Assembly: GCA_000961805.1 (NCBI GenBank)
Contig: LADV01000109.1
Span: 1 to 10,419, forward strand
Reading direction: 5' to 3'
Source of the DNA: Peptococcaceae bacterium BRH_c23
GTDB taxonomy: Bacteria > Bacillota_B > Desulfitobacteriia > Desulfitobacteriales > Desulfitobacteriaceae
DNA: 10,419 bases
Shown: positions 1 to 10,118 of the stretch, piece by piece
How positions within the stretch are numbered: position 1 is the first letter of the stretch
How the letters are laid out: every line of letters begins with the position of its first letter
Position numbers and translations under genes: made by a program
The notes under the pieces: model-generated
Told to the model about the DNA's origin: nothing
Database searches by the model: none
The model's input: only the letters and a program-made list of their open reading frames with translations

Positions 1-251
1 ACAGGAATCTTAATTCCGATTTTCCAAATCCCTAAGGTTTGGAGTAGTGTAGCAATACCACAAGTAAATAAGTCAGCGTTAATCAAAAAAGCCGTTTGTG
101 CTTGAGTTAAGCCAGCTGCTCCAGCAATAATCAACGGAACGGCAACCGCTCCGGCATACATCGCCAGTACGTGTTGTAACCCGTATAGAAAAAGTTTCCC
201 AGCAGGCAGCATCTCGTCGACCGGTGCCACTCCATGTTTGGTATTAGCCAT
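1..251 (-). CDS. NCS2-family urate/xanthine permease, N-terminal part (runs off the window)
   Basis: This is the first 83 codons of a nucleobase:cation symporter-2 protein; the rest lies beyond position 1. The stretch GLQHVLAMYAGAVAVPLII (about residues 24-42) is the family's first transmembrane signature. It is preceded by the amphipathic LPAGKLFLYGLQ and followed by a second hydrophobic segment (TAFLINADLFTCGIATLLQ). The pattern is closest to the UacT/PucJ/PbuX branch, which carries urate and xanthine, rather than the uracil permeases. The ATG at 249-251 follows a good ribosome binding site at 262-270. A sigma-54-type promoter about 200 nt upstream and the neighbouring xdh genes suggest purine import for the hydroxylase. 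The exact substrate cannot be told from this fragment. Confidence 0.9.
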   Translation of the reverse strand, partial: MANTKHGVAPVDEMLPAGKLFLYGLQHVLAMYAGAVAVPLIIAGAAGLTQAQTAFLINADLFTCGIATLLQTLGIWKIGIKIP

Positions 252-462: not shown

Positions 463-480
463 TAGCAAGATTCGTGCCAA
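463..480 (-). promoter_or_regulatory. Sigma-54 (-24/-12) promoter for the permease
   Basis: The minus strand reads TTGGCACGAATCTTGCTA, matching the consensus TGGCAC-N5-TTGC exactly, with the invariant GG and GC separated by 10 bp. Taking the C of GC as -12 places the start of transcription near 453, giving a leader of about 200 nt before the permease ATG. A sigma-54 activator is encoded at 8233-10005, and three palindromic candidate activator sites lie upstream. Confidence 0.85.
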
Positions 481-542
481 CTCGACACTTACTGCAAATC
501 CAGCCTAAAATACACCTTTGGGGAATATTTACCGTAACGAAA

Positions 543-557
543 TTATCAAAATGGTAA
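543..557. promoter_or_regulatory. Activator binding site, proximal, upstream of the permease promoter
   Basis: TTATCA-AAA-TGGTAA is an imperfect palindrome with one base off TTATCA-N3-TGATAA. Its centre (550) is 85 bp from the C of the -12 GC, or about -97 from the predicted start. The proximal site of the xdhA promoter has exactly the same offset. That makes it a likely upstream activating sequence for the sigma-54 regulator. Confidence 0.65.
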
Positions 558-640
558 TCTCTTAGGATTCTAAAGGGTATCTTCACAAATTTCCGCCCTA
601 AATATACATTGATGCTGGATTTGAGGGAGGACTTTATTGA

Positions 641-655
641 TTATCATTTTGATAT
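641..655. promoter_or_regulatory. Activator binding site, distal, permease side
   Basis: TTATCA-TTT-TGATAT matches the palindromic consensus at all but the last base. Its centre (648) is about -195 from the predicted permease start and 21 bp, two helical turns, from the next site at 662-676. Confidence 0.6.
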
Positions 656-661
656 GCATAG

Positions 662-676
662 TTATCAGAATGAGTC
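662..676. promoter_or_regulatory. Activator half-site, distal, permease side
   Basis: TTATCA-GAA-TGAGTC has a complete left arm and a partial right arm. It is centred at 669, 21 bp beyond the site at 641-655. The weak arm suggests cooperative binding with that neighbour, if it is used at all. Confidence 0.4.
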
Positions 677-702
677 AGAATGCTCAATCTTTCCGTGTGG
701 CT

Positions 703-868
703 TCACCTGCCAAAGATAAAATTCTTTCTACCGAAAAAGAAATAGCCACGTCGAATCCGATTTAACATGGTTCGTTCCATCCCTTTTTGAGCAATCCATT
801 GTTGCATTTGATCGGCAGAGAGACTTAATTCATTCGTTATTATTCGGTAATACGACCCGTTCTTGCAT
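703..868 (-). pseudogene. Possible remnant of a small protein gene, frameshifted
   Basis: An ATG at 866-868 opens MQERVVLPNNNE and meets TGA at 830-832. A second frame then continues LSLSADQMQQWIAQKGMERT... to a TGA at 703-705. The two frames meet at a tandem ATTC-ATTC (828-835). Removing one copy would join them into a 53-residue protein. The second frame alone is open for 63 codons but lacks an early ATG. There is no clear ribosome binding site and I do not recognise the family. It may be a decaying gene, or chance open frame in the intergenic region after ygfK. Confidence 0.25.
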
Positions 869-892
869 GATTCGACATTAATAACAAGTGAA

Positions 893-932
893 ATTTAGAG
901 AGGCCCGCTATAATACTTCGACCTCTCTAAAT
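893..932 (-). terminator. Inverted repeat after ygfK, probable transcription end
   Basis: Eleven-base perfect arms ATTTAGAGAGG and CCTCTCTAAAT enclose an 18-nt loop, starting 12 nt after the ygfK stop codon. On the minus strand the right arm runs into AAATTTCAC, so the U-tract is short. A rho-independent terminator or 3'-end stabilising hairpin is the likeliest role. The permease further downstream has its own promoter, which fits an operon end here. Confidence 0.55.
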
Positions 933-944
933 ATGCGCATTTTT

Positions 945-3900
945 TTAAAGTTTATACAAATAACCGTATTCTTTATAAACTGTCCAAATAAAGGCTGCAA
1001 CCTTGTCATCCATCGGCAAACTTGGTTTACCGGCTTCATCAAACTTCACCTTGTGGATTTTCTCCTCTAGGCGAAGCATGAATTCCCCATTGCGACCACC
1101 ATCTAAGAAATAGAAGCCGATATTAGGACTATCCATGAAATCTTTCTCAGTCCAGAAGAGAGTTAGCTTTACCTTGTACGGCTCACTGGAATACGGGCAG
1201 AAGGTCCCGCAGTTTCCGCAGACATTACACATTCCATCCATATGCAGAATCTGATTCATATTCGTTAAACCTTGGCCCTTGACCGGAATCATAAGGTTGG
1301 CGCGGTTTGGGCAGACCTCAGCACAGATATTACAGACTTTATTGCACTCTAAACATCTGTCGGATTCCAGCTTGTGATCGGCAACAGGTTTCATTACGCC
1401 TTTCTTTTCAGCAATCTCTAATAACTGCTTTTCATTATTAAAGGAGATCTTAGACGTAAACTCTTGTTTGAATTCCAGCTGTTCCTTTTCTAGAATGGCT
1501 TTAGCCACAATTGTTCCGTGCTTAGCAGCACCGACCACTGTCCAAGGTCCAACCAGGGCATCTCCACCGATAAAGACATTTTCCACACTAGTTTCCAGGG
1601 TTTCTTGGTTGACGCGAATGATCCCTTTCTCCCCTACTTCAATACCGTTGCTCTTTAAGAGGTCATAATCGATCAGTTCCCCAATCGCTGACAAGACGGT
1701 ATCGATGGGCAGTTCTTCAAAGGCACCCGCCTTGGCCACTGGTTTCCTTCGCCCAGAGGCATCCGCTTGACCCAGCTCCATGGTCTGACATTTCAAGACG
1801 CCCTTAGTCAAGGAGACTGGCGCAAGAAGCTCCTTGAAGATAACCCCATCTTCCTGAGCATAGTGAAGCTCTTCTTTGTCAGCAGGCATGTAGTCTTTTG
1901 TTCTACGATAGACAATATAGACATTCTCCACGCCTTTCACTCTCAGGGCAGCCCGAGCAGCATCCATCGCAGAATTACCGCCCCCGACAACTGCCACGTT
2001 CTTACCCAGCTTTAGGGCCTCTTTGTCAGCGTTAAAGGCTTCCAGGAAGGGTATCGCTCCCATCACCCGTTCCCTATCCCCTTGGATCTCCAGATCATTG
2101 GTCTTTCCTGCACCGATTGCTAGATAGACATACTGGAACCCTTTCGCTTTGTAATCAGCTACGGAAACCTTGGGATCAATCCCAAATTGGAACTTAACGC
2201 CCATTTTTTCGATCAGTTTAATGTCTTTAGTGATCGCTTCTCTTGAGATTCTGAAATCCGGGATAACGTATTCGACGGTACCGCCGGCTTTCTGACGTTT
2301 ATCAAAAACAGTAACCTCCATGCCCCCTTTGGCAAGGAAATAAGCGGCCGCCAGGCCAGATGGACCTGCTCCAATGACGGCTACTTTGGCAGATGACTCA
2401 GGTTTCAGGGTAGGAAGCTTCTGCATATAGGCATCAAACCCTTTTTCTGCAGCCACCAATTTTTGTCCCCGGATATGCACTGACTCATCATAATATAAAC
2501 GGGTACACTTGGTCATACAGTTGTGGGTACAAATCGTCCCCGTAATAAAGGGGAATGGGTTTTTGGAGACTATGACATCAAACGCTTCCTCATAGCGTTC
2601 CTCGCCTACCAAGCGAAGGTACTCAGGGACATCTTGTTCAATGGGACATCCAACAGTACATGGGGCCATGAAACAATCAAGCACAGGGAGCTTAAGCTCT
2701 GTTTTACGATTGACCAGGTCTCTCTTTTCCTTGAGATGGTTAGCATCGTCCAAGGAACTTTCAGCTAGGGCTTTTAGTTTTTTCATATCCAGCTTATCGG
2801 AGTCTTGCTTACCCATGAGTGGATCTAAGAGATCTGCCATTTGCTTAAAGCGCGTATAGGCTCCGGGTTTTAACAGAGTTGTTGCCACGGTGATTGGCTG
2901 GATTCCCGTCTCAAAGATTCGATCAATATTAAAGGCATCCGCTCCACCTGAATAGGAGATCTTGAGATCCCCTCCGAACTCCGCAGCTAACTTATACGCC
3001 AGATTAATCGTTAAGGGATAAAGTGCTCGACCGGACACGTACATTTCCTCGCCCGGCAATTCCGATTTCATGATCCTTACAGGCAACGTATTAGACATCT
3101 TGATGCCAAAATCTTTTTGCTTCTCCAGGGCGAAAACTTTGAGACGTTTTAACATCTCAACGCCATCTTTAAATTGAAGGTCATGGGTAAAGGATTCTTC
3201 CTTCAACTCAATATATTTGTAACCCATTTTATCGAAGGTGTTCCTCACATACTCATATCCTAAAAGCGTCGGATTCATCTTCACAAAGGTATGCAATTTC
3301 TTTTCACTGATTAAGTATTTAATGATAGCTTCGATTTCTGCCGGTGGGCAGCCATGCATGGTCGATAAGGTAATCGACGTGCAAATATTAGGTGAAATCT
3401 GTTCAATAAAAGCTCGATCAATCGTTTTAAACTGATCAACATTTTCCAGTAAAGAAGCAAGACACTCCTTAAAAATCAACCTTTCTGAAGCGTCTTTAAG
3501 CCCTTCGATGAATTGATCAACTTTAGGAGATTGAATCCCTTTCAAGTCATACCCTACGCTCATATTGAACATAAATCGTCGATCACTTTGGTTAAAGAAC
3601 TCCTTTTGTAAGACGTGGAGAGCAAACCAGGCTTTTACATACTCGTCAAAGGCACCCATAATCGGAAGCTCCGTAGACCACTCCGTGTTATAGCATTCGT
3701 CCTCCGCCAGGATACAGGGCTTAGGAATCTCTAACTCATCCATGATTTGAACAGATTTCAACTCGAAGAAACGACTCCCGCTCAGGTAAGAAGCGATAAT
3801 GTTTTGTGCGAGTTGAGTATGCGGACCAGCCGCCGGACCAACTGGAGTATCCATGGTTTCACCAAAAAGTCCAATCTGGTGGTCATTCTTCTTTTGGAAA

Positions 3901-4007
3901 AATTTAACCTCAGATACGCCGAAAATAGTCTGAGTGCGCTTATATTCTTCGAACATCCAGTTAACCAAGTTCTTGAAGGGAATTTGAATCATTTTATCAC
4001 TCATCAT
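945..4007 (-). CDS. ygfK: YgfK-type iron-sulfur flavoprotein (annotated as putative selenate reductase subunit)
   Basis: This 1020-residue protein closely follows E. coli YgfK (about 1030 residues) from end to end. Residues 50-390 are a dihydropyrimidine-dehydrogenase-like barrel (TPVGPAAGPHTQLAQN at 54-69, STMHGCPP at 215-222, PGEEMYVSGRALYPL at 318-332). Residues 445-501 carry GltD-type cysteines (C445, C450, C454, then C493, C497, C501). An FAD fold starts at VAVIGAGPSGLAAAYF (542-557) and an NAD(P)H fold at VAVVGGGNSAMDAARAAL (671-688). C-terminal clusters are CLECNKVCNICAEVCP (885-900) and CNVCGNCGTFCP (927-938). The start is the first of two adjacent ATGs, 9 nt after GAGGAA. It follows xdhC by 118 bp and is probably co-transcribed. 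The selenate label comes from E. coli genetics; its electron partner here is unknown, and purine metabolism is likelier given the context. Confidence 0.92.
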   Translation of the reverse strand: MMSDKMIQIPFKNLVNWMFEEYKRTQTIFGVSEVKFFQKKNDHQIGLFGETMDTPVGPAAGPHTQLAQNIIASYLSGSRFFELKSVQIMDELEIPKPCILAEDECYNTEWSTELPIMGAFDEYVKAWFALHVLQKEFFNQSDRRFMFNMSVGYDLKGIQSPKVDQFIEGLKDASERLIFKECLASLLENVDQFKTIDRAFIEQISPNICTSITLSTMHGCPPAEIEAIIKYLISEKKLHTFVKMNPTLLGYEYVRNTFDKMGYKYIELKEESFTHDLQFKDGVEMLKRLKVFALEKQKDFGIKMSNTLPVRIMKSELPGEEMYVSGRALYPLTINLAYKLAAEFGGDLKISYSGGADAFNIDRIFETGIQPITVATTLLKPGAYTRFKQMADLLDPLMGKQDSDKLDMKKLKALAESSLDDANHLKEKRDLVNRKTELKLPVLDCFMAPCTVGCPIEQDVPEYLRLVGEERYEEAFDVIVSKNPFPFITGTICTHNCMTKCTRLYYDESVHIRGQKLVAAEKGFDAYMQKLPTLKPESSAKVAVIGAGPSGLAAAYFLAKGGMEVTVFDKRQKAGGTVEYVIPDFRISREAITKDIKLIEKMGVKFQFGIDPKVSVADYKAKGFQYVYLAIGAGKTNDLEIQGDRERVMGAIPFLEAFNADKEALKLGKNVAVVGGGNSAMDAARAALRVKGVENVYIVYRRTKDYMPADKEELHYAQEDGVIFKELLAPVSLTKGVLKCQTMELGQADASGRRKPVAKAGAFEELPIDTVLSAIGELIDYDLLKSNGIEVGEKGIIRVNQETLETSVENVFIGGDALVGPWTVVGAAKHGTIVAKAILEKEQLEFKQEFTSKISFNNEKQLLEIAEKKGVMKPVADHKLESDRCLECNKVCNICAEVCPNRANLMIPVKGQGLTNMNQILHMDGMCNVCGNCGTFCPYSSEPYKVKLTLFWTEKDFMDSPNIGFYFLDGGRNGEFMLRLEEKIHKVKFDEAGKPSLPMDDKVAAFIWTVYKEYGYLYKL

Positions 4008-4069
4008 TCGTTATCATTCCTCAATTCTTTATTGATTTGATCTGCTGCTCAGCGCCAATCATTGCCACA

Positions 4070-4084
4070 TTTTCATAATGGTAA
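4070..4084. promoter_or_regulatory. Activator-site-like palindrome between xdhC and ygfK
   Basis: TTTTCA-TAA-TGGTAA resembles the TTATCA-N3-TGATAA sites found before the two sigma-54 promoters. No properly spaced -24/-12 element follows: the nearby TGGCAATGATTGGC has GG and GC 9 bp apart instead of 10. It may be a residual or chance site. Confidence 0.25.
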
Positions 4085-4125
4085 TAAGTTTCGCCGAGCC
4101 CTAGCTAAGCTTAAGTAAATTTCGT

Positions 4126-4632
4126 TTATTTTCCTTTATAATGAGGGCTGTCAACACACGTGCAAATATGCCCTTCTAAGGACTTTTCAGCAGCTTTTAA
4201 GATACTCTGGTAACCTGTACACCGACATAAATGACCTGAGAGTTCTCGTTTAATCTCCTCACGAGTGTAATCTTTGCCACTCTCCACCATAGCCGTAGTG
4301 GTCAGAACGAGGCCAGGGGTACAGAAGCCACACTGCACAGCCCCTTCTTCGACGTAGGTTTTCTGAACATCAGAAAGTTCCCCATTTTTTGCCGCCAAAC
4401 CCTCTATCGTCCTAATCTCCTTACCGTCCGCCCAAACGGCTAAGTATATGCAGGTATCATAAGGCGTACCATCAATCAGTACGCTGCAGGCGCCACATTC
4501 GCCAACCCCACAGCCTTGTTTAGCACCCGTAAAACCCAATTGACTTCTCAAAACATCCAGCAACGATTCGCGTACATCCACCTCAAAATTATAGGCTCTT
4601 CCATTCACCGTAAAGGCAATTCGCTTAAACAA
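4126..4632 (-). CDS. xdhC: Xanthine dehydrogenase-type [2Fe-2S] subunit XdhC
   Basis: This is the electron-transfer subunit of a molybdenum hydroxylase, 168 residues from the chosen start (E. coli XdhC has 159). A plant-type ferredoxin cluster is bound by C41, C46, C49 and C61 (CGVGECGAC...C). The second, helical-domain cluster is bound by C101, C104, C136 and C138 (CGFCTPG...CRCTGYQ). Together they carry electrons from the molybdenum site to the FAD of XdhB. I chose the TTG at 4630-4632 because GGAGGTG ends about 6 nt upstream and family similarity begins just after it. A longer frame opens with another TTG at 4656 but has no comparable site. The chosen start overlaps the xdhB stop by 8 nt, implying translational coupling. 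A short tail with CTC (HICTCVDS) is an extra of unknown meaning. Confidence 0.93.
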   Translation of the reverse strand: MFKRIAFTVNGRAYNFEVDVRESLLDVLRSQLGFTGAKQGCGVGECGACSVLIDGTPYDTCIYLAVWADGKEIRTIEGLAAKNGELSDVQKTYVEEGAVQCGFCTPGLVLTTTAMVESGKDYTREEIKRELSGHLCRCTGYQSILKAAEKSLEGHICTCVDSPHYKGK

Positions 4633-5506
4633 CTTCCGCACCTCCTGCGTTGACAACAGCTATTTTCAGGGCTCTTTGCGTGAGTTCTTCGACAAGATGT
4701 TCCCTATACTCTTTAGAAGCCCGCCAAGAGGTTCGTGCCTTGGCTGATTTAACCGCCAGCTTGCCAATCTCCGTCAACGTAGCGGATGAAACTTTCTTCC
4801 CCTTGGCGTACTCTTCTGCTTCAAGGCACCTTAAGGGAGTTGGACCTGCAACCCCTAGTCCAATTCTTACGTCTGCAAAGTATCCGCTCTGCAGTTTGCA
4901 GACAACGGCCACTCCCAGGGTGGCAATATCCATCGCTTCACGCATGGCAAACTTAATATATTGCCCGCCAAAGCCTTGATAATCTTCCGGCGCAATCAGA
5001 ATCTCGGTAAGAATTTCCCCTGGCTTCAAAGCAACTTTACCAGGCCCAAGATAAAATTCACGGATGGTCACGACACGTTCCCCATTTGCATCCTGTAATT
5101 TCAGCTGGGCATTCAGCGCAAACAAGGAAGAGGCGCTGTCTGCAGACGTTGCTCCATTACAAACGTTTCCTCCGATAGTGGCGATATTTCTGATTTGCGG
5201 CCCCCCCATGGAGATCGCCGCTTCGGTGAGAATTGGGATTGCCTCCCGAAGAATCGGATTGTGGAAAATCATCGAAAAGGTAGCCATTGCTCCGATCACG
5301 ATCGTCCCATTTTCTGATATTTGAATACTCTCCAAGGATTTAATCTTGCGAAGGCTCAAGAGCTCTGCATCTTCAAGTTGCCCTCCGTGCATTTTGATGA
5401 GCACGTCTGTCCCACCGGCAATAATTCTCAGATTGGGGTTTTGTGAAAGGAGCGCAGTCGCTTCACTAACGGTCTCGGCATCGTAATATCCTTTAATATC
5501 GTACAT
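4625..5506 (-). CDS. xdhB: Xanthine dehydrogenase-type FAD-binding subunit XdhB
   Basis: A 293-residue protein of the CoxM/XdhB family, nearly the same length as E. coli XdhB (292). It binds FAD through AGGTD (30-34) and the long motif GGPQIRNIATIGGNVCNGAT with SADS after it (101-124). The C-terminal CO-dehydrogenase flavoprotein domain includes GVAGPTPLRC and the conserved RTSWRASKEYREHL. It takes electrons from the iron-sulfur subunit and passes them to NAD or another acceptor. The ATG lies 15 nt after the xdhA stop, preceded by AAGGCGGTGA. Its last codons contain the ribosome binding site of xdhC, and the stop lies within the xdhC start. Confidence 0.94.
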   Translation of the reverse strand: MYDIKGYYDAETVSEATALLSQNPNLRIIAGGTDVLIKMHGGQLEDAELLSLRKIKSLESIQISENGTIVIGAMATFSMIFHNPILREAIPILTEAAISMGGPQIRNIATIGGNVCNGATSADSASSLFALNAQLKLQDANGERVVTIREFYLGPGKVALKPGEILTEILIAPEDYQGFGGQYIKFAMREAMDIATLGVAVVCKLQSGYFADVRIGLGVAGPTPLRCLEAEEYAKGKKVSSATLTEIGKLAVKSAKARTSWRASKEYREHLVEELTQRALKIAVVNAGGAEVV

Positions 5507-5521
5507 CGTTTCACCGCCTTA

Positions 5522-7882
5522 CTAGATTAATCCAACTTCTTTAAACTTTTCGAAAACACGTTGCGGATTCATCGGGATCCGATTGAAAGCCACGTCCGTC
5601 GCATCCAATACAGCATTGCGAATTGCCGGAGCCGGAGAAACAATCGGAGGCTCTCCCAAGGATTTGACGCCAAAGGGCCCTGTTGGATCATCTTGTTCCA
5701 CGAAAGCTGCGCCAATATCAGGTGTATCCATCATGGTCGGAAGTTTATAATCCAGCAAATTATTGTTAAGAGGTTTACCCGTCACCTCATCAAAGAGCAA
5801 CTGTTCGGAGAGGGCATAGCCAATGGCCATACTCACCCCGCCATGCACTTGCCCCTCTGCCAAGAGTGGATTGATGATCTTACCAGAATCATGGACATTG
5901 AAGATTTCCGATATCTTAATTTTCCCAGTCTTGATGTCGACTTCCACTTCTACAAAGGTTACCCCAAAAGGTATGGCATTAAGGCGAGCATTATTTGAAA
6001 CATCACTGGTAATAGGTTGGGCATGAACTCTGTCATAATAGGACTGCATCGCAACCACTTCCAGGGCTAGGATTTGTTCGCCAGACTCTTTAAAGACAAT
6101 GAATTGATCTTGAAGATCTAAGAGATGGGCAGGGATATCTGTCATCCTCTGGGCAAAACCAAGCACTTTTGCCTTAACTTCCAGGGCAGCCTTTTCCACA
6201 GCCATCCCTGTTACATAGGTTTGCCTCGAAGCATAAGACCCCGTATCAAAGGGGGTAATATCTGTATCTTGGGTGGAGACGACATGGACCATATACATGG
6301 GAAGACCGAGGACCTCAGCCACCATTTGAGCGAAGACTGTGTCACTCCCTTGGCCGATTTCTGTTGCACCGAGTTGAACTTGCACTGAACCATCTTGGTT
6401 CATGACAATACGCACTCCAGCAAGTTCTAAGGCTACCGGATAGGTTCCCGAAGCATAGCTAAAGCAGGCCATGCCTAACCCTCGACGCAGATCTCCGCTC
6501 TGCTCCTTGTACAAGGCTTTCTTGACGTCCCACTTGATTAACTCTCGACCCTTATCGATGCATTCCCGGATAGCACAGCTCATGATCTTATTTTTACTCA
6601 ACGGTTCTACAAACCCAACTTCAACTAGGTTTTTCTTCCGAATCTCGATGGGGTCCAGGTTGAGTTTCTTGGCAATATCTTCGATATGAGATTCAAAGGC
6701 AAAGAATATCTGGGGAGTACCATACCCCCGCATCGCTCCAGCAACCGGCAAATTGGTATAAACCGTTATAGGATCATATTTCAAGGCCTTGGTTGGATAT
6801 AGATAGCGGAATTTACCGCCCCCGCTTGAAGCAATAGAATGACCATGTGACGCGTAGGCGCCAGTGTTGGAAACGGCAGAAATATGTATTCCGTTAATTT
6901 TTCCATCCTGATTGATTCCAGTCTTGATTTTAAACTTGAAAGCATGACGGGTTCGGGTGTCAATCATGGCTTCCTCTCGCGAAAGTTCCAGTTTGACAGG
7001 TCTCCCACCCACAGCCAAACTCATAGCAGCATTCAAAGGTTCAATAGTCACATCCTGCTTATTACCGAACCCACCCCCAACGTAAGGCTTGATCACTCGT
7101 ACCCGACCCCAAGAAACACCTAAGGATTGAGCAACGATCCTGCGCACAATGTGGGGGATCTGAGTTGAGGTCATGATCACGATTCGTCGATCTGCATCGA
7201 CATAGGCATGGGATACTTGATTTTCCATATGACAATGCTGAACTATACTTGTGTGGTACTCACCTTCTATGACATGATCGGATTCAGCAAAAGCTGCTTC
7301 CATATCCCCTATTGCATAACCACCTAAAGCCAGTATGTTTCGTTCACAGTCATCATGAATCAAAGGGGCACCATCTTTAAGGGCAGCATCTGTGCTGGTT
7401 AACGCTTCCAACACTTCATATTCAACCTCAATCAGCTTCAAAGCCTTGGAGGCGATAAGAGCATCCGTGGCAACCACAGCTGCAATATTATCTCCCACAA
7501 ATCGAGCCTTCTGCGTCAAAATATGGCGATCCTCTTTATCCCGATGGCTTTCATCGAGGGAAAAAGGATGCCCCGCGGTTCCATATTTAAGCTGCGCAAC
7601 ATCCACTTCATCCGTTGCGATAGCCTCTATAACTCCCGGCATAGCCGTAGCGAATCGAATATTCGGCAAATCATGGTACGTTAAAACAGCCTCGACTCCA
7701 GGTAAAGCTTTGGCTTTACTGACATCGATTGATTTAACAAGGGCATGAGCATAAGGACTATGTAGAATTTTCCCAATCAACATATCCCGTTCAGAAAAAT
7801 CATCCGTATACTTGGCCTTCCCTGTTACTTTGGCGACAGCATCGACTCTTCTGACGCTTTTCCCTACCACCGTATAAGCCAT
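5522..7882 (-). CDS. xdhA: Xanthine dehydrogenase-type molybdopterin-binding subunit XdhA
   Basis: The catalytic subunit (786 residues; E. coli XdhA 752) of a molybdenum hydroxylase that adds oxygen from water to a purine ring. An N-terminal a/b hammerhead domain (about 15-160) is followed by the molybdopterin domains. Visible motifs are VQHCHMENQVSHAYV (214-228), GGGFGNKQD (269-277), GAMRGYGTPQ (382-391), GATEIGQGSDTVFAQM (505-520), SYASRQTYV (549-557) and KSLGEPPI (740-747). E744 matches the general-base glutamate and R385 the substrate-binding arginine of xanthine oxidase. At 276 there is glutamine where bovine xanthine oxidase has a second glutamate. There is no in-frame UGA, so selenium, if used, would be a labile ligand and not selenocysteine. 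The ATG lies 7 nt after GGGAGG. A sigma-54 promoter lies about 86 nt upstream. Purine is the likely substrate; xanthine, hypoxanthine or another cannot be separated by sequence. Confidence 0.94.
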   Translation of the reverse strand: MAYTVVGKSVRRVDAVAKVTGKAKYTDDFSERDMLIGKILHSPYAHALVKSIDVSKAKALPGVEAVLTYHDLPNIRFATAMPGVIEAIATDEVDVAQLKYGTAGHPFSLDESHRDKEDRHILTQKARFVGDNIAAVVATDALIASKALKLIEVEYEVLEALTSTDAALKDGAPLIHDDCERNILALGGYAIGDMEAAFAESDHVIEGEYHTSIVQHCHMENQVSHAYVDADRRIVIMTSTQIPHIVRRIVAQSLGVSWGRVRVIKPYVGGGFGNKQDVTIEPLNAAMSLAVGGRPVKLELSREEAMIDTRTRHAFKFKIKTGINQDGKINGIHISAVSNTGAYASHGHSIASSGGGKFRYLYPTKALKYDPITVYTNLPVAGAMRGYGTPQIFFAFESHIEDIAKKLNLDPIEIRKKNLVEVGFVEPLSKNKIMSCAIRECIDKGRELIKWDVKKALYKEQSGDLRRGLGMACFSYASGTYPVALELAGVRIVMNQDGSVQVQLGATEIGQGSDTVFAQMVAEVLGLPMYMVHVVSTQDTDITPFDTGSYASRQTYVTGMAVEKAALEVKAKVLGFAQRMTDIPAHLLDLQDQFIVFKESGEQILALEVVAMQSYYDRVHAQPITSDVSNNARLNAIPFGVTFVEVEVDIKTGKIKISEIFNVHDSGKIINPLLAEGQVHGGVSMAIGYALSEQLLFDEVTGKPLNNNLLDYKLPTMMDTPDIGAAFVEQDDPTGPFGVKSLGEPPIVSPAPAIRNAVLDATDVAFNRIPMNPQRVFEKFKEVGLI

Positions 7883-7978
7883 TTCATTTCCTCCCGTCCT
7901 TAAAACTTATTAAGACCTCTCTGTCGATTAGAATTCCATCTTCAGAGAATGAAATACCAGCAATCCAAAATTATAACA

Positions 7979-7996
7979 ATGCAATATTCATGCCAA
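7979..7996 (-). promoter_or_regulatory. Sigma-54 (-24/-12) promoter for the xdhABC-ygfK operon
   Basis: The minus strand reads TTGGCATGAATATTGCAT, with GG and GC 10 bp apart. It differs from the permease promoter core only at a few positions outside the invariant bases. The predicted start of transcription is near 7969, leaving a leader of about 86 nt before the xdhA ATG. Candidate activator sites lie at 8059-8182, and the sigma-54 regulator gene is the next one upstream. Confidence 0.82.
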
Positions 7997-8047
7997 TGAG
8001 CTCAGATGTCGAAAAGAGGCTGAATCTGTGATTTGTTGTAATACTCG

Positions 8048-8084
8048 GAGGACAGGCCTTATCATAATGATAACGTCTGTCCTC
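8048..8084. repeat. 37-bp nested palindrome between the regulator and xdhA
   Basis: Outer arms GAGGACAG (8048-8055) and CTGTCCTC (8077-8084) are perfect. Inside them, separated by 3 bp on each side, is the perfect inner palindrome TTATCAT-A-ATGATAA (8059-8073). As RNA it would form a long hairpin about 150 nt after the regulator stop, but no U-tract follows on the minus strand. It may end or stabilise the regulator transcript while also holding the proximal activator site. Confidence 0.5.
8059..8073. promoter_or_regulatory. Activator binding site, proximal, upstream of xdhA
   Basis: TTATCA-TAA-TGATAA is a perfect palindrome around a single central base. Its centre (8066) is 85 bp from the C of the -12 GC, or about -97 from the predicted xdhA start. 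The proximal permease site has the same offset. Confidence 0.7.
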
Positions 8085-8128
8085 GATTTCACTTATAATT
8101 CATTTATATCATTTGAGTCTATGACTAA

Positions 8129-8143
8129 ATATCATTTTGATAT
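8129..8143. promoter_or_regulatory. Activator binding site, distal 1, upstream of xdhA
   Basis: ATATCA-TTT-TGATAT is part of longer arms AAATATCA/TGATATTT (8127-8145) that are fully complementary. Its centre (8136) is about -167 from the predicted start. Confidence 0.55.
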
Positions 8144-8147
8144 TTTC

Positions 8148-8162
8148 TTATCATATTGAACT
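8148..8162. promoter_or_regulatory. Activator half-site, distal 2, upstream of xdhA
   Basis: TTATCA-TAT-TGAACT has a complete left arm and a degenerate right arm. It is centred at 8155, between full sites 19 bp and 20 bp away, close to two helical turns in each direction. Confidence 0.4.
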
Positions 8163-8167
8163 GCCTT

Positions 8168-8182
8168 TTATCAATTTGATAA
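8168..8182. promoter_or_regulatory. Activator binding site, distal 3, upstream of xdhA
   Basis: TTATCA-ATT-TGATAA is a perfect match to the consensus palindrome. Its centre (8175) is about -206 from the predicted xdhA start and roughly 50 bp after the regulator's stop codon. Confidence 0.6.
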
Positions 8183-8232: not shown

Positions 8233-10005
8233 TTAATCAATGTTATAACGTGCTAATTTGCGATATAAGGTTGCTACTCCAATTCCTAAGGCCTTGGCCA
8301 CTTTCTCTTTTCCTCGAACACCAGCTTCCGCGGCTTGGTAACAGCGGAGAATTGTTTCCCGTTCAACATTTTCCAGATTAAACCCATTGAGTTCAGTATG
8401 ATTTTGAGGAGCTGTTTTCAATCTCGGAGATAAATGTTCCTCAGTCAAAGTCGAACCTTCGGCTAAATTCATAGCATATTCAATCACGTTCTGAAGTTCT
8501 CGGACATTGCCTGGCCAAGAATAGTCTTGTAATCTCTGCCGAAATCCATCCGTTAAAAACTGAACGTTTTTATTCAGCTGTGGATTGTAACTCTTGATAA
8601 AATGCTGACTCAAAATATCCAAGTCTTCTTTTCTATCTCGCAGAGAGATAATCTCAATGGGAATCACATTAATCCTGTAATATAAATCTTCACGAAACTC
8701 ACCTTTCGCCATCATTTGCTCAAGGTTACGATGGGTTGCAGCGATGACTCGGACATCTACAGGGATAGGAGTTATGCCCCCAATTCGTTCAATTTGACGT
8801 TCTTGGAGCACCCTAAGAATTTTGGCCTGTAAAAATAAGGGCATATCTCCAATTTCATCGAGGAATAGGGTTCCTTTGTTTGCCAATTCAAACTTGCCGA
8901 TCTTGCCCCCTTTGCGAGCACCTGTAAAGGCCCCATCTTCGTATCCGAAGAGCTCACTTTCCAGCAACATTTCCGGAATCGCCGTACAATTAATCGCCAT
9001 AAACATCCCTTGTTGTCTGGGACTGAGATTATGAATGGAGCGAGCTAACATTTCTTTACCTGTTCCACTCTCCCCCCGAATCAAGACCGTTGATTTCGTG
9101 TTAGCTACGACCTTTGCCCGCTCTCGGATTTGGCTTATACTCTGACTATTTCCCAAAATATCCTCGATGGTATAGCCTGCATCTTGAAGTGAGAGTCGGT
9201 TAACGATTCGACCGATTTCATCAAGCGGTCGCAAGGTGATAGCGATACTCTGCACCCTGTCTTCACTAGCAATGGGTAGAGCACGCAAAACCATCTGCAC
9301 TCGGTTCTTCTTGGTTTCGACATGAACTTCACGTTCCACGACTTCGTCCATGTTTTTCCCGGCTTTTAGAATGTCCGCAACAATTTGTGGTGTGAATAAG
9401 GATTTTAATTGACTCCGTGGGGTAAGCAGATTAGCACTAAACAAGCGTTTAGCTGCTTGGTTATAGTGAAGGACATTTCCATCAAGATCCACCGTCAGCA
9501 GTCCCTCTTCCAAGCAGTCAATAATGGAGTTGAGATAATGATTGGACGATACCAGACCAGCTAAAAACTCCTGTTCCTTTAACTTTAAAGCAATAGTTTC
9601 AGCCATTTTCGTTAAAAAGATGAGATAGGATTGCTGATTTTCTTGGATGAGTTTCGCTTGGGCATCACTAAAGCAGATCAGTCCGATCACACCCACAGCT
9701 TTACCATCCACATTGATCGGGGATACCACTTCATATTTTTCGGAGCAATTTCCTCGAGCTTTACATGGGGCGCAAAGCGGATGGGTTCCCGGCGTTTCGA
9801 TCACAAACTGATGTCCTGTCCGCAGTACTTCCTGATACACGTATCCCTGCCGATCCATGGATAGACCTACCCCTTTGTGATACCTTCCGGTTCCAGCAAT
9901 ACGCACCAAATTATGATCCGCTATCTCAATATCGATTTTCACAACAGTGGCAATCGCTTCAGCAATTTGTTGAGCATAATCTCTAACGGCCATAAGTTCA
10001 ACCAT
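8233..10005 (-). CDS. Sigma-54-dependent transcriptional activator, YgeV-like
   Basis: A 590-residue enhancer-binding protein. Residue numbers count from a TTG one codon before the chosen ATG. The N-terminal sensory region (1-130) holds [10 protein letters not shown], a CX2CX5C motif (C79, C82, C88), plus GVIGLICF, a GAF-like pattern shared with E. coli YgeV, which lies beside xdhABC there. A PAS-like region (about 155-260) includes [20 protein letters not shown]. The AAA+ domain shows Walker A GESGTGKE (312-319), the sigma-54 contact loop GAFTGA (359-364), Walker B LFLDEIGD (381-388) and [15 protein letters not shown] (498-512). The C-terminus is a Fis-type HTH ([16 protein letters not shown]). 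The ATG at 10003-10005 fits better with the GGGGGT upstream than the preceding TTG does. Its position directly before the xdhA control region suggests that it activates xdhABC-ygfK and the permease. The inducer is unknown; a purine or a redox signal is possible. Confidence 0.92.
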
Positions 10006-10118
10006 CAAGTTACCCCCATAACTATTATTCTCATTAAAATCTTATAATATGACAATATTCCTTTTGATTGGCCTATTTTTTAATTCGTTAAGAATTCACT
10101 TTATCCTTTAACCTAGTT
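10006..10118 (-). promoter_or_regulatory. AT-rich upstream region of the regulator gene
   Basis: This 113-bp gap should hold the regulator's own promoter unless it is read through from the DUF1294 gene. On the minus strand TTGTCA (10048-10053) followed 17 nt later by GAGAAT is a weak sigma-70-type candidate. TTGTCA-TAT also resembles one half of the activator palindrome, so autoregulation is conceivable but unsupported. No terminator hairpin is evident after the DUF1294 gene. Confidence 0.25.

Follow-up and report, generated by a model that had tools for sequence, protein, structure and literature searches.

A candidate sigma-54 regulon for xanthine uptake and oxidation in Peptococcaceae bacterium BRH_c23 and its relatives

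The xanthine dehydrogenase locus and its activator

We analyzed a stretch of 10,419 nt from Peptococcaceae bacterium BRH_c23 (contig LADV01000109.1, hereafter the window), in which all genes found lie on the minus strand: a DUF1294 gene, a one-component sigma-54 activator that we call EBP1, the xanthine dehydrogenase genes xdhA, xdhB and xdhC, a ygfK-type reductase gene, and the start of a pbuX-type xanthine permease gene [Table 1]. Coordinates are those of the whole window unless a locus of a relative is named (G and L numbers are our labels for genomes and loci), and distances to a promoter run from the palindrome center to the -12 C of the sigma-54 element. Judging from the motifs, their spacing, and their conservation, EBP1 very likely binds the palindrome TTATCA-N3-TGATAA and drives xdhABC (probably with ygfK) and pbuX through a proximal dimer about 85 bp upstream and a distal array. 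No separate sigma-54 element was found for the ygfK-type gene at up to 1 mismatch; the gene probably belongs to the xdhABC operon, with which it would be co-transcribed. A riboswitch in the 214-nt pbuX leader was ruled out, as Rfam gave no match up to E 1 across the whole window, leader included.

EBP1 is the sole sigma-54 activator found in the window and lies beside xdhA, as an earlier note on this DNA had stated. Its AAA+ sigma-54 interaction domain (PF00158) scores 243.4 bits against a cut-off of 20.2, with Walker A, Walker B, and GAFTGA motifs at residues 312, 359, and 381. The Fis-type helix-turn-helix (HTH; PF02954, helices predicted at 564-587) scores 20.5 in the window protein, just below the gathering value of 22, and is matched in 34 of 34 aligned homologues at E <= 0.01. 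Together with -24/-12 promoters that have upstream sites near the regulator gene, these features are those of a putative sigma-54 enhancer-binding protein. In the N-terminal region, Pfam hints at GAF and SpoVT_C, both below cut-off in the window protein; the structure model (mean predicted local distance difference test score, pLDDT, 83.8; predicted template modeling score, pTM, 0.48) gave a re-alignment in which the chains listed were AAA+ only, and the N-terminal fold was not identified that way. The same region holds a C-x2-C-x5-C arrangement (C79, C82, and C88), invariant in 34 of 34 aligned activators and present in Escherichia coli YgeV, which is possibly a metal or iron-sulfur site. EBP1 shares 91% identity with the corresponding protein of Desulfosporosinus sp. 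I2 and 80-88% (best segment) with those of other Desulfosporosinus loci, so that the window very probably comes from Desulfosporosinus or a near neighbor of that genus. Against the PrdR model of NCBIfam (NF041552) it scores 412.5 bits, where the curated cut-off is 795, and is not assigned to that family.

Table 1. Features of the window and the sister activator in a relative
Feature	Position	Strand	Remarks
EBP1, one-component sigma-54 activator	8233-10008	-	GAF/SpoVT_C-like region, PAS, AAA+, Fis-type HTH
xdhA, molybdenum-binding subunit of xanthine dehydrogenase	5522-7882	-	over curated cut-off
xdhB, flavin adenine dinucleotide (FAD)-binding subunit	4625-5506	-	over curated cut-off
xdhC, iron-sulfur subunit	4126-4656	-	over curated cut-off
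ygfK-type reductase	945-4007	-	starts 118 bp after xdhC
pbuX-type xanthine permease, start only (runs off window)	3-251	-	partial; family resemblance, under cut-off
sigma-54 element of xdhA, TTGGCATGAATATTGC	7981-7996	-	0 mismatches
sigma-54 element of pbuX, TTGGCACGAATCTTGC	465-480	-	0 mismatches
xdhA proximal palindrome, center 8066, at 85 bp	8059-8073		perfect; conserved in relatives
xdhA distal palindrome at 155 bp	8129-8143		2 mismatches; absent from the earlier note
xdhA weak distal palindrome at 174 bp	8148-8162		3 mismatches; under matrix threshold
xdhA distal palindrome at 194 bp	8168-8182		perfect
pbuX proximal palindrome, center 550, at 85 bp	543-557		1 mismatch
pbuX distal palindrome at 183 bp	641-655		1 mismatch
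pbuX weak distal palindrome at 204 bp	662-676		3 mismatches; under matrix threshold
outer inverted repeat, GAGGACAG / CTGTCCTC	8048-8055 / 8077-8084		encloses the xdhA proximal palindrome
EBP2, sister activator	L099 5705-7471		relatives also carry EBP2

Sigma-54 elements and palindromes in the window

In a search tolerating 3 mismatches, the pattern TTGGCAYGAATMTTGC matched the window exactly twice, both times with 0 mismatches; shuffled sequences gave a mean of 0.38, and 8 of 200 shuffles attained two matches at the same tolerance. The core TTGGCA-Y-GAAT-M-TTGC, which the earlier note had assigned to both promoters, is exact at each. Perfect copies of TTATCA-N3-TGATAA are only two in the window, both upstream of xdhA. 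At up to 3 mismatches the excess of palindromes over the whole window is weak (13 vs a shuffle mean of 7.31, with 13 attained by 9 of 200 shuffles), and the four at up to 1 mismatch all lie upstream of the pbuX or xdhA promoter. In Markov-shuffled 300-bp upstream regions, the probability of at least one palindrome at up to 1 mismatch is 0.0034 for pbuX and 0.0062 for xdhA, and at least two were obtained in 0 of 20,000 shuffles for each region.

The palindrome clusters that had been described upstream of both promoters are present, although all sites but the two perfect ones carry 1-3 mismatches. The centers nearest to the promoters were confirmed at 550 and 8066, each 85 bp from the -12 C, and the identical enhancer geometry proposed for the two promoters is limited to this proximal site because the distal distances differ (155/174/194 vs 183/204) and three of the distal sites have 2-3 mismatches. 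The distal positions first reported (-195/-216 and -186/-206) are right as start-site numbers, equivalent to 183/204 and 174/194 from the -12 C, but they missed the better site at 155 and included the weak ones at 204 and 174.

Conservation in relatives

Loci of relatives were taken from genome contigs (22 loci) and from whole-genome searches, in which matches at E <= 1e-130, paralogues included, were obtained in 39 of 82 class-mates and 50 of 398 phylum members. From 38 loci we made by hand a list of 58 promoters beside EBP1 orthologues (28 xdhA, 23 pbuX, and 7 others), which contains near-duplicate species (L002/L003/L004, L001/L016, L008/L012/L085, and L013/L014). Omitted from it were pbuX of L018 and L094, where neither a good sigma-54 element nor a site is present, pbuX of L178, which agrees with the rest (86, 178, and 196), and both promoters of L131, which disagree. 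A proximal palindrome was found in 57 of the 58 promoters, at 83-87 bp in 48, at 64-75 bp in five, and at 96-97 bp in four. Matrix sites numbered 168 against a mean of 2.48 over 50 shuffles, a comparison that is partly circular because the matrix was trained on the same promoters. This excess and the shuffled upstream regions of the window reject chance palindromes in AT-rich DNA as an explanation. The arms of the proximal sites are near-constant while the 3-bp center varies, which is the pattern expected of a protein site. Most aligned xdhA promoters also carry a further conserved block, TTTtcGAcAt, about 15-30 bp upstream of TTGGCA.

Genome-wide, a pattern joining a half-site to the sigma-54 element was matched 35 times, in 15 of 18 genomes, and 0 times when reversed. 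Palindrome-bearing promoters of xdhA, pbuX, serine-hydroxymethyltransferase-type, or ABC-transporter genes account for 22 of the 35 (20 read directly, two known by position). Among the remaining 13, four are ygeY promoters of a sister activator, EBP2 (see below), and the 10 that were read together have no palindrome at up to 1 mismatch, whereby a larger regulon inside Desulfosporosinus was rejected; one more was read inside L151. The exact palindrome occurs 47 times in the genomes of 18 relatives (reversed control, 9 in total). By our own count the EBP1 regulon accounts for 34 of these copies, either at its promoters or immediately ahead of the regulator gene; none of the other 13, of which 12 are within reading frames, has a sigma-54 site at up to 1 mismatch within the 2.5-3 kb of sequence fetched. 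Conservation in relatives had been named in the earlier note as a check on its regulon, and on the evidence of these sequences, the palindrome keeps its form, its spacing, and its place beside the regulator gene across Desulfosporosinus and in several more distant lineages.

Spacing and helical phase

The 85-bp distance is exact at both promoters of the window; in relatives it widens to 85 +/- 2, apart from jumps the size of a helical turn and a small number of exceptions. Proximal distances fall about one helical turn apart (64-66, 74-75, 83-87, and 96-97), such that the nine promoters outside 83-87 (at 64, 66, 74, 75, 96, and 97) depart from it by about one or two turns. At a period of 10.5 bp, the mean resultant is 0.88 for 57 proximal sites, most of which share ancestry, vs 0.40 for 95 distal sites. 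Nine proximal classes, which we grouped after seeing the data, give a resultant of 0.82 (p about 0.002). In the best distal sites of 17 representatives no phase was found (resultant 0.13, p about 0.76), yet 45 of 53 pairs of adjacent distal sites are separated by 19-21 bp. These observations indicate that the proximal site is probably phase-locked to the promoter and that the distal array floats while being internally phased. Conceivably, the regulon and the motif are real and the near-constant spacing has simply been inherited without being functionally required, as the promoters are for the most part related by descent within a single genus, the nine classes are post hoc, and the sites of G151 lie at 192/196. 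We consider this less likely, given that two distinct promoters, xdhA and pbuX, have equal spacing and that the deviant distances are themselves about one or two turns off.

A sister activator with a contrasting motif

EBP2 lies 22-24 kb from EBP1 in the same purine gene cluster of G002 and is 45% identical to it. The two share a domain plan, the cysteines, a sigma-54 promoter, and palindromes of 6-3-6 form, but the ygeY promoter beside EBP2 carries GTCTCA-N3-TGAGAC (motif B) instead of TTATCA-N3-TGATAA (motif A), and its proximal site is usually at 103-106 bp (also 96, 153, 190-192, and 200). At up to 1 mismatch, all 20 EBP2 regions fetched (L149-L168) contain motif B and none contains motif A; motif B was found in 0 of the 58 EBP1 promoters. 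The pbuX promoter of G076 bears motif B, and the EBP2 clade includes the only regulator found in that genome at E <= 1e-130. The recognition helix reads GIG[VLIM]ATLYRK throughout the 29 EBP1 rows (support 100/100) of a 54-row tree and GISRA[ST]LYRK throughout its 9 EBP2 rows (support 97/100), the latter being 9 of more than 20 EBP2 genes seen (exact GAFTGA only, twelve of L149-L168); the clades are sisters with weaker support (83/87). Two of the six bases differ between the arms, and the outer T/G parallels the absence/presence of the arginine in the recognition helix. The motif thus tracks the activator type. Of all the evidence, this correlation speaks most strongly for TTATCA-N3-TGATAA as the likely binding site of the adjacent activator.

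A single palindrome also lies 118-173 bp upstream of the regulator gene itself in 10 of 33 EBP1 loci (L002, L003, L004, L006, L007, L008, L012, L083, L084, and L085), several of them near-duplicates and the window not among them. No sigma-54 element was seen at these 10 palindromes, whose position suggests autoregulation in one part of the genus. They could be cited for the view that a different DNA-binding protein, a repressor or another activator, reads the palindromes on the same promoters while EBP1 reads something else, as could the 67 activator genes reported for D. orientis (PMC12316311). We regard this as improbable, since the motif switches with the activator type, also at the G076 pbuX, and the distance from site to sigma-54 element is as expected for an activator. 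Least of all do we credit the proximal palindrome as belonging to a hairpin that terminates transcription of the regulator gene. Although the window palindrome sits inside a longer inverted repeat, perhaps the regulator's terminator, and a similar outer stem occurs in L001, L016, and L088, the stem looks convincing in these four only of 9 promoters flagged among 58 (at least 9 of 14 outer matches), both palindrome and spacing are kept where the stem is missing, and pbuX, which does not adjoin the regulator gene, has the same palindrome; as a general explanation the hairpin was rejected.

Two side observations concern other activators. In L132, an activator outside EBP1 and EBP2 has the helix GISRATIYRK and GTATCAGGATGATAC nearby, a palindrome 88 bp upstream of a sigma-54 element at 11408(+), where the outer G accompanies the SRA helix as in EBP2. 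Thirteen promoters of ygeX, a diaminopropionate ammonia-lyase-type gene (L149, L151, L152, L154-L159, L162, L163, L168, and L099 at 9021), have a perfect sigma-54 element with neither motif A nor motif B at up to 2 mismatches within 300 bp; hence, a third activator or unseen sites must serve ygeX.

Targets and the proposed regulation

In Desulfosporosinus the predicted targets are xdhABC and pbuX, as had been proposed, but outside the genus other targets appear. EBP1 sites were found upstream of a serine hydroxymethyltransferase gene in G447 (and in G012/G013, by the look of the protein start), a threonine-synthase-type gene in G188, and an ABC-transporter ATPase gene in G012 and G013. Names checked with NCBIfam are YgeY (L099; L095 by one of two models), diaminopropionate ammonia-lyase and SsnA (L099), serine hydroxymethyltransferase (L129), and the threonine-synthase type (L130); the remaining gene names in relatives were read by eye. 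The YgeW-like gene of L099 scores 177.7, far below the YgeW cut-off of 500, and the ABC ATPase of L100 is below its best NCBIfam cut-off; in L101, 91-94% identical to L100 in DNA, the downstream gene is 638 bp on. In G007 (L179), a lone perfect palindrome (1532-1546) lies just upstream of a purine riboswitch (1575-1674; RF00167, 69.4 bits) that precedes another XdhB-like gene, and no sigma-54 element at up to 3 mismatches was found between 1300 and 1740.

Several observations weigh against the proposed regulon. The pbuX of L017 has a sigma-54 element and no palindrome, and those of L018 and L094 have neither (in L094 the only element, at 2 mismatches, is 634 bp off); pbuX control looks to have been lost in these three loci. 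In G151, which at 59% identity is the most distant of the EBP1 genomes examined, no site lies near 85; the nearest are at 192 and 196, measured from 1-mismatch sigma-54 elements. EBP1 sites stand at a YgeY-family gene in G043, which overlaps the target type of EBP2, so that the division of labor between the two activators is not strict. The EBP1-type helix GIGIATLYRK recurs in three rows outside EBP1 (L144, L145, and YgeV); the helix alone is therefore insufficient to define the motif.

On balance, the regulon reading is supported and right in substance: the motif is unusually clean, a sister pair offers a contrast, and the spacing probably follows the helical turn. From the sites, their spacing, their conservation, and the pairing of protein type with motif, we infer binding, ring assembly, activation, and an inducer as follows. 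The Fis-type HTH of EBP1 would bind TTATCA-N3-TGATAA. At the xdhABC and pbuX promoters, one dimer would occupy the proximal site, always on one helical face and some 85 bp upstream from the -12 element, and further dimers would occupy the distal array, whose 19-21 bp repeats equal two helical turns. The AAA+ domains of the bound protein may then form a ring, whose GAFTGA loops would open the sigma-54 polymerase complex, so that xanthine uptake and oxidation would be turned on together; the N-terminal region presumably senses a purine or a pathway intermediate. EBP2, with its other recognition helix and GTCTCA-N3-TGAGAC, would run ygeY, a later step of the same cluster. Tentatively, and with rather less assurance, we suggest that an old duplication lets EBP1 (xanthine uptake and oxidation) and EBP2 (the later step) divide one anaerobic purine-degradation cluster, with the EBP1 proximal site locked to one helical face, the distal array floating, and the polymerase reached from a turn-quantized position.

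Comparison with known systems

As the published DioR and YgeV regulons overlap with it in targets, the system is of an already known type. The DioR regulon of Clostridiales (Nie et al., 2019, PMC6615313), discussed for xanthine and urate use in PMC11448449, has as predicted targets pbuX, ygeW-ygfK-ssnA-ygeY, dpaL, and yqeB. Both are predicted sigma-54 activator regulons with palindromic upstream sites, whose targets include pbuX and a ygfK-containing operon. In contrast, xdhABC is not among the targets listed for DioR, nor is Desulfosporosinus in the distribution listed there. Of the traits of the DioR group, pbuX as a target is shared by EBP1; dpaL and ygeY promoters are not under EBP1, since ygeY has motif B and ygeX (dpaL) neither motif, G043 being the exception. 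By the targets listed (dpaL, ygeW-ygfK-ssnA-ygeY, and yqeB), DioR looks more EBP2-like. Among the papers listed by literature searches we recognized none on TTATCA-N3-TGATAA at purine genes, the motif of Nie et al. (Fig. 3, Table S3) not having been compared, and absence from print is not claimed.

The likeness to YgeV drawn in the earlier note holds only loosely, as a kinship of role. E. coli YgeV, renamed IsrR for an indole-response role (PMC9426417), is described as heading an iModulon with xdhABC, ygeWXY, ygfK, and ssnA (PMC12132413). Like EBP1, it adjoins xdhABC, which each may control, it has the recognition helix GIGIATLYRK, and a perfect TTATCATAATGATAA lies upstream of E. coli ygfK. 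However, YgeV is only 32.5% identical to EBP1 over the whole length (37% to EBP2) and forms a long branch outside both clades, and the E. coli sites lie 140-222 bp from sigma-54-like elements picked by eye, with none at 85. The 35-kb ygeV locus contains five matrix sites at 9 bits or more (20 shuffles: mean 0.85, largest 3), three of them upstream of xdhA, ygeW, and ygfK (the last perfect) and two inside genes. A similar palindrome may be read by YgeV. According to PMC12507026, the enzymes of the cluster are those of the reductive uric acid pathway, a recently described route to which the present locus ties the regulation of xanthine use. Desulfosporosinus genomes may hold dozens of sigma-54 activators; this locus offers a clean activator-motif pair, with a contrasting sister motif in the same cluster and a probable spacing rule.
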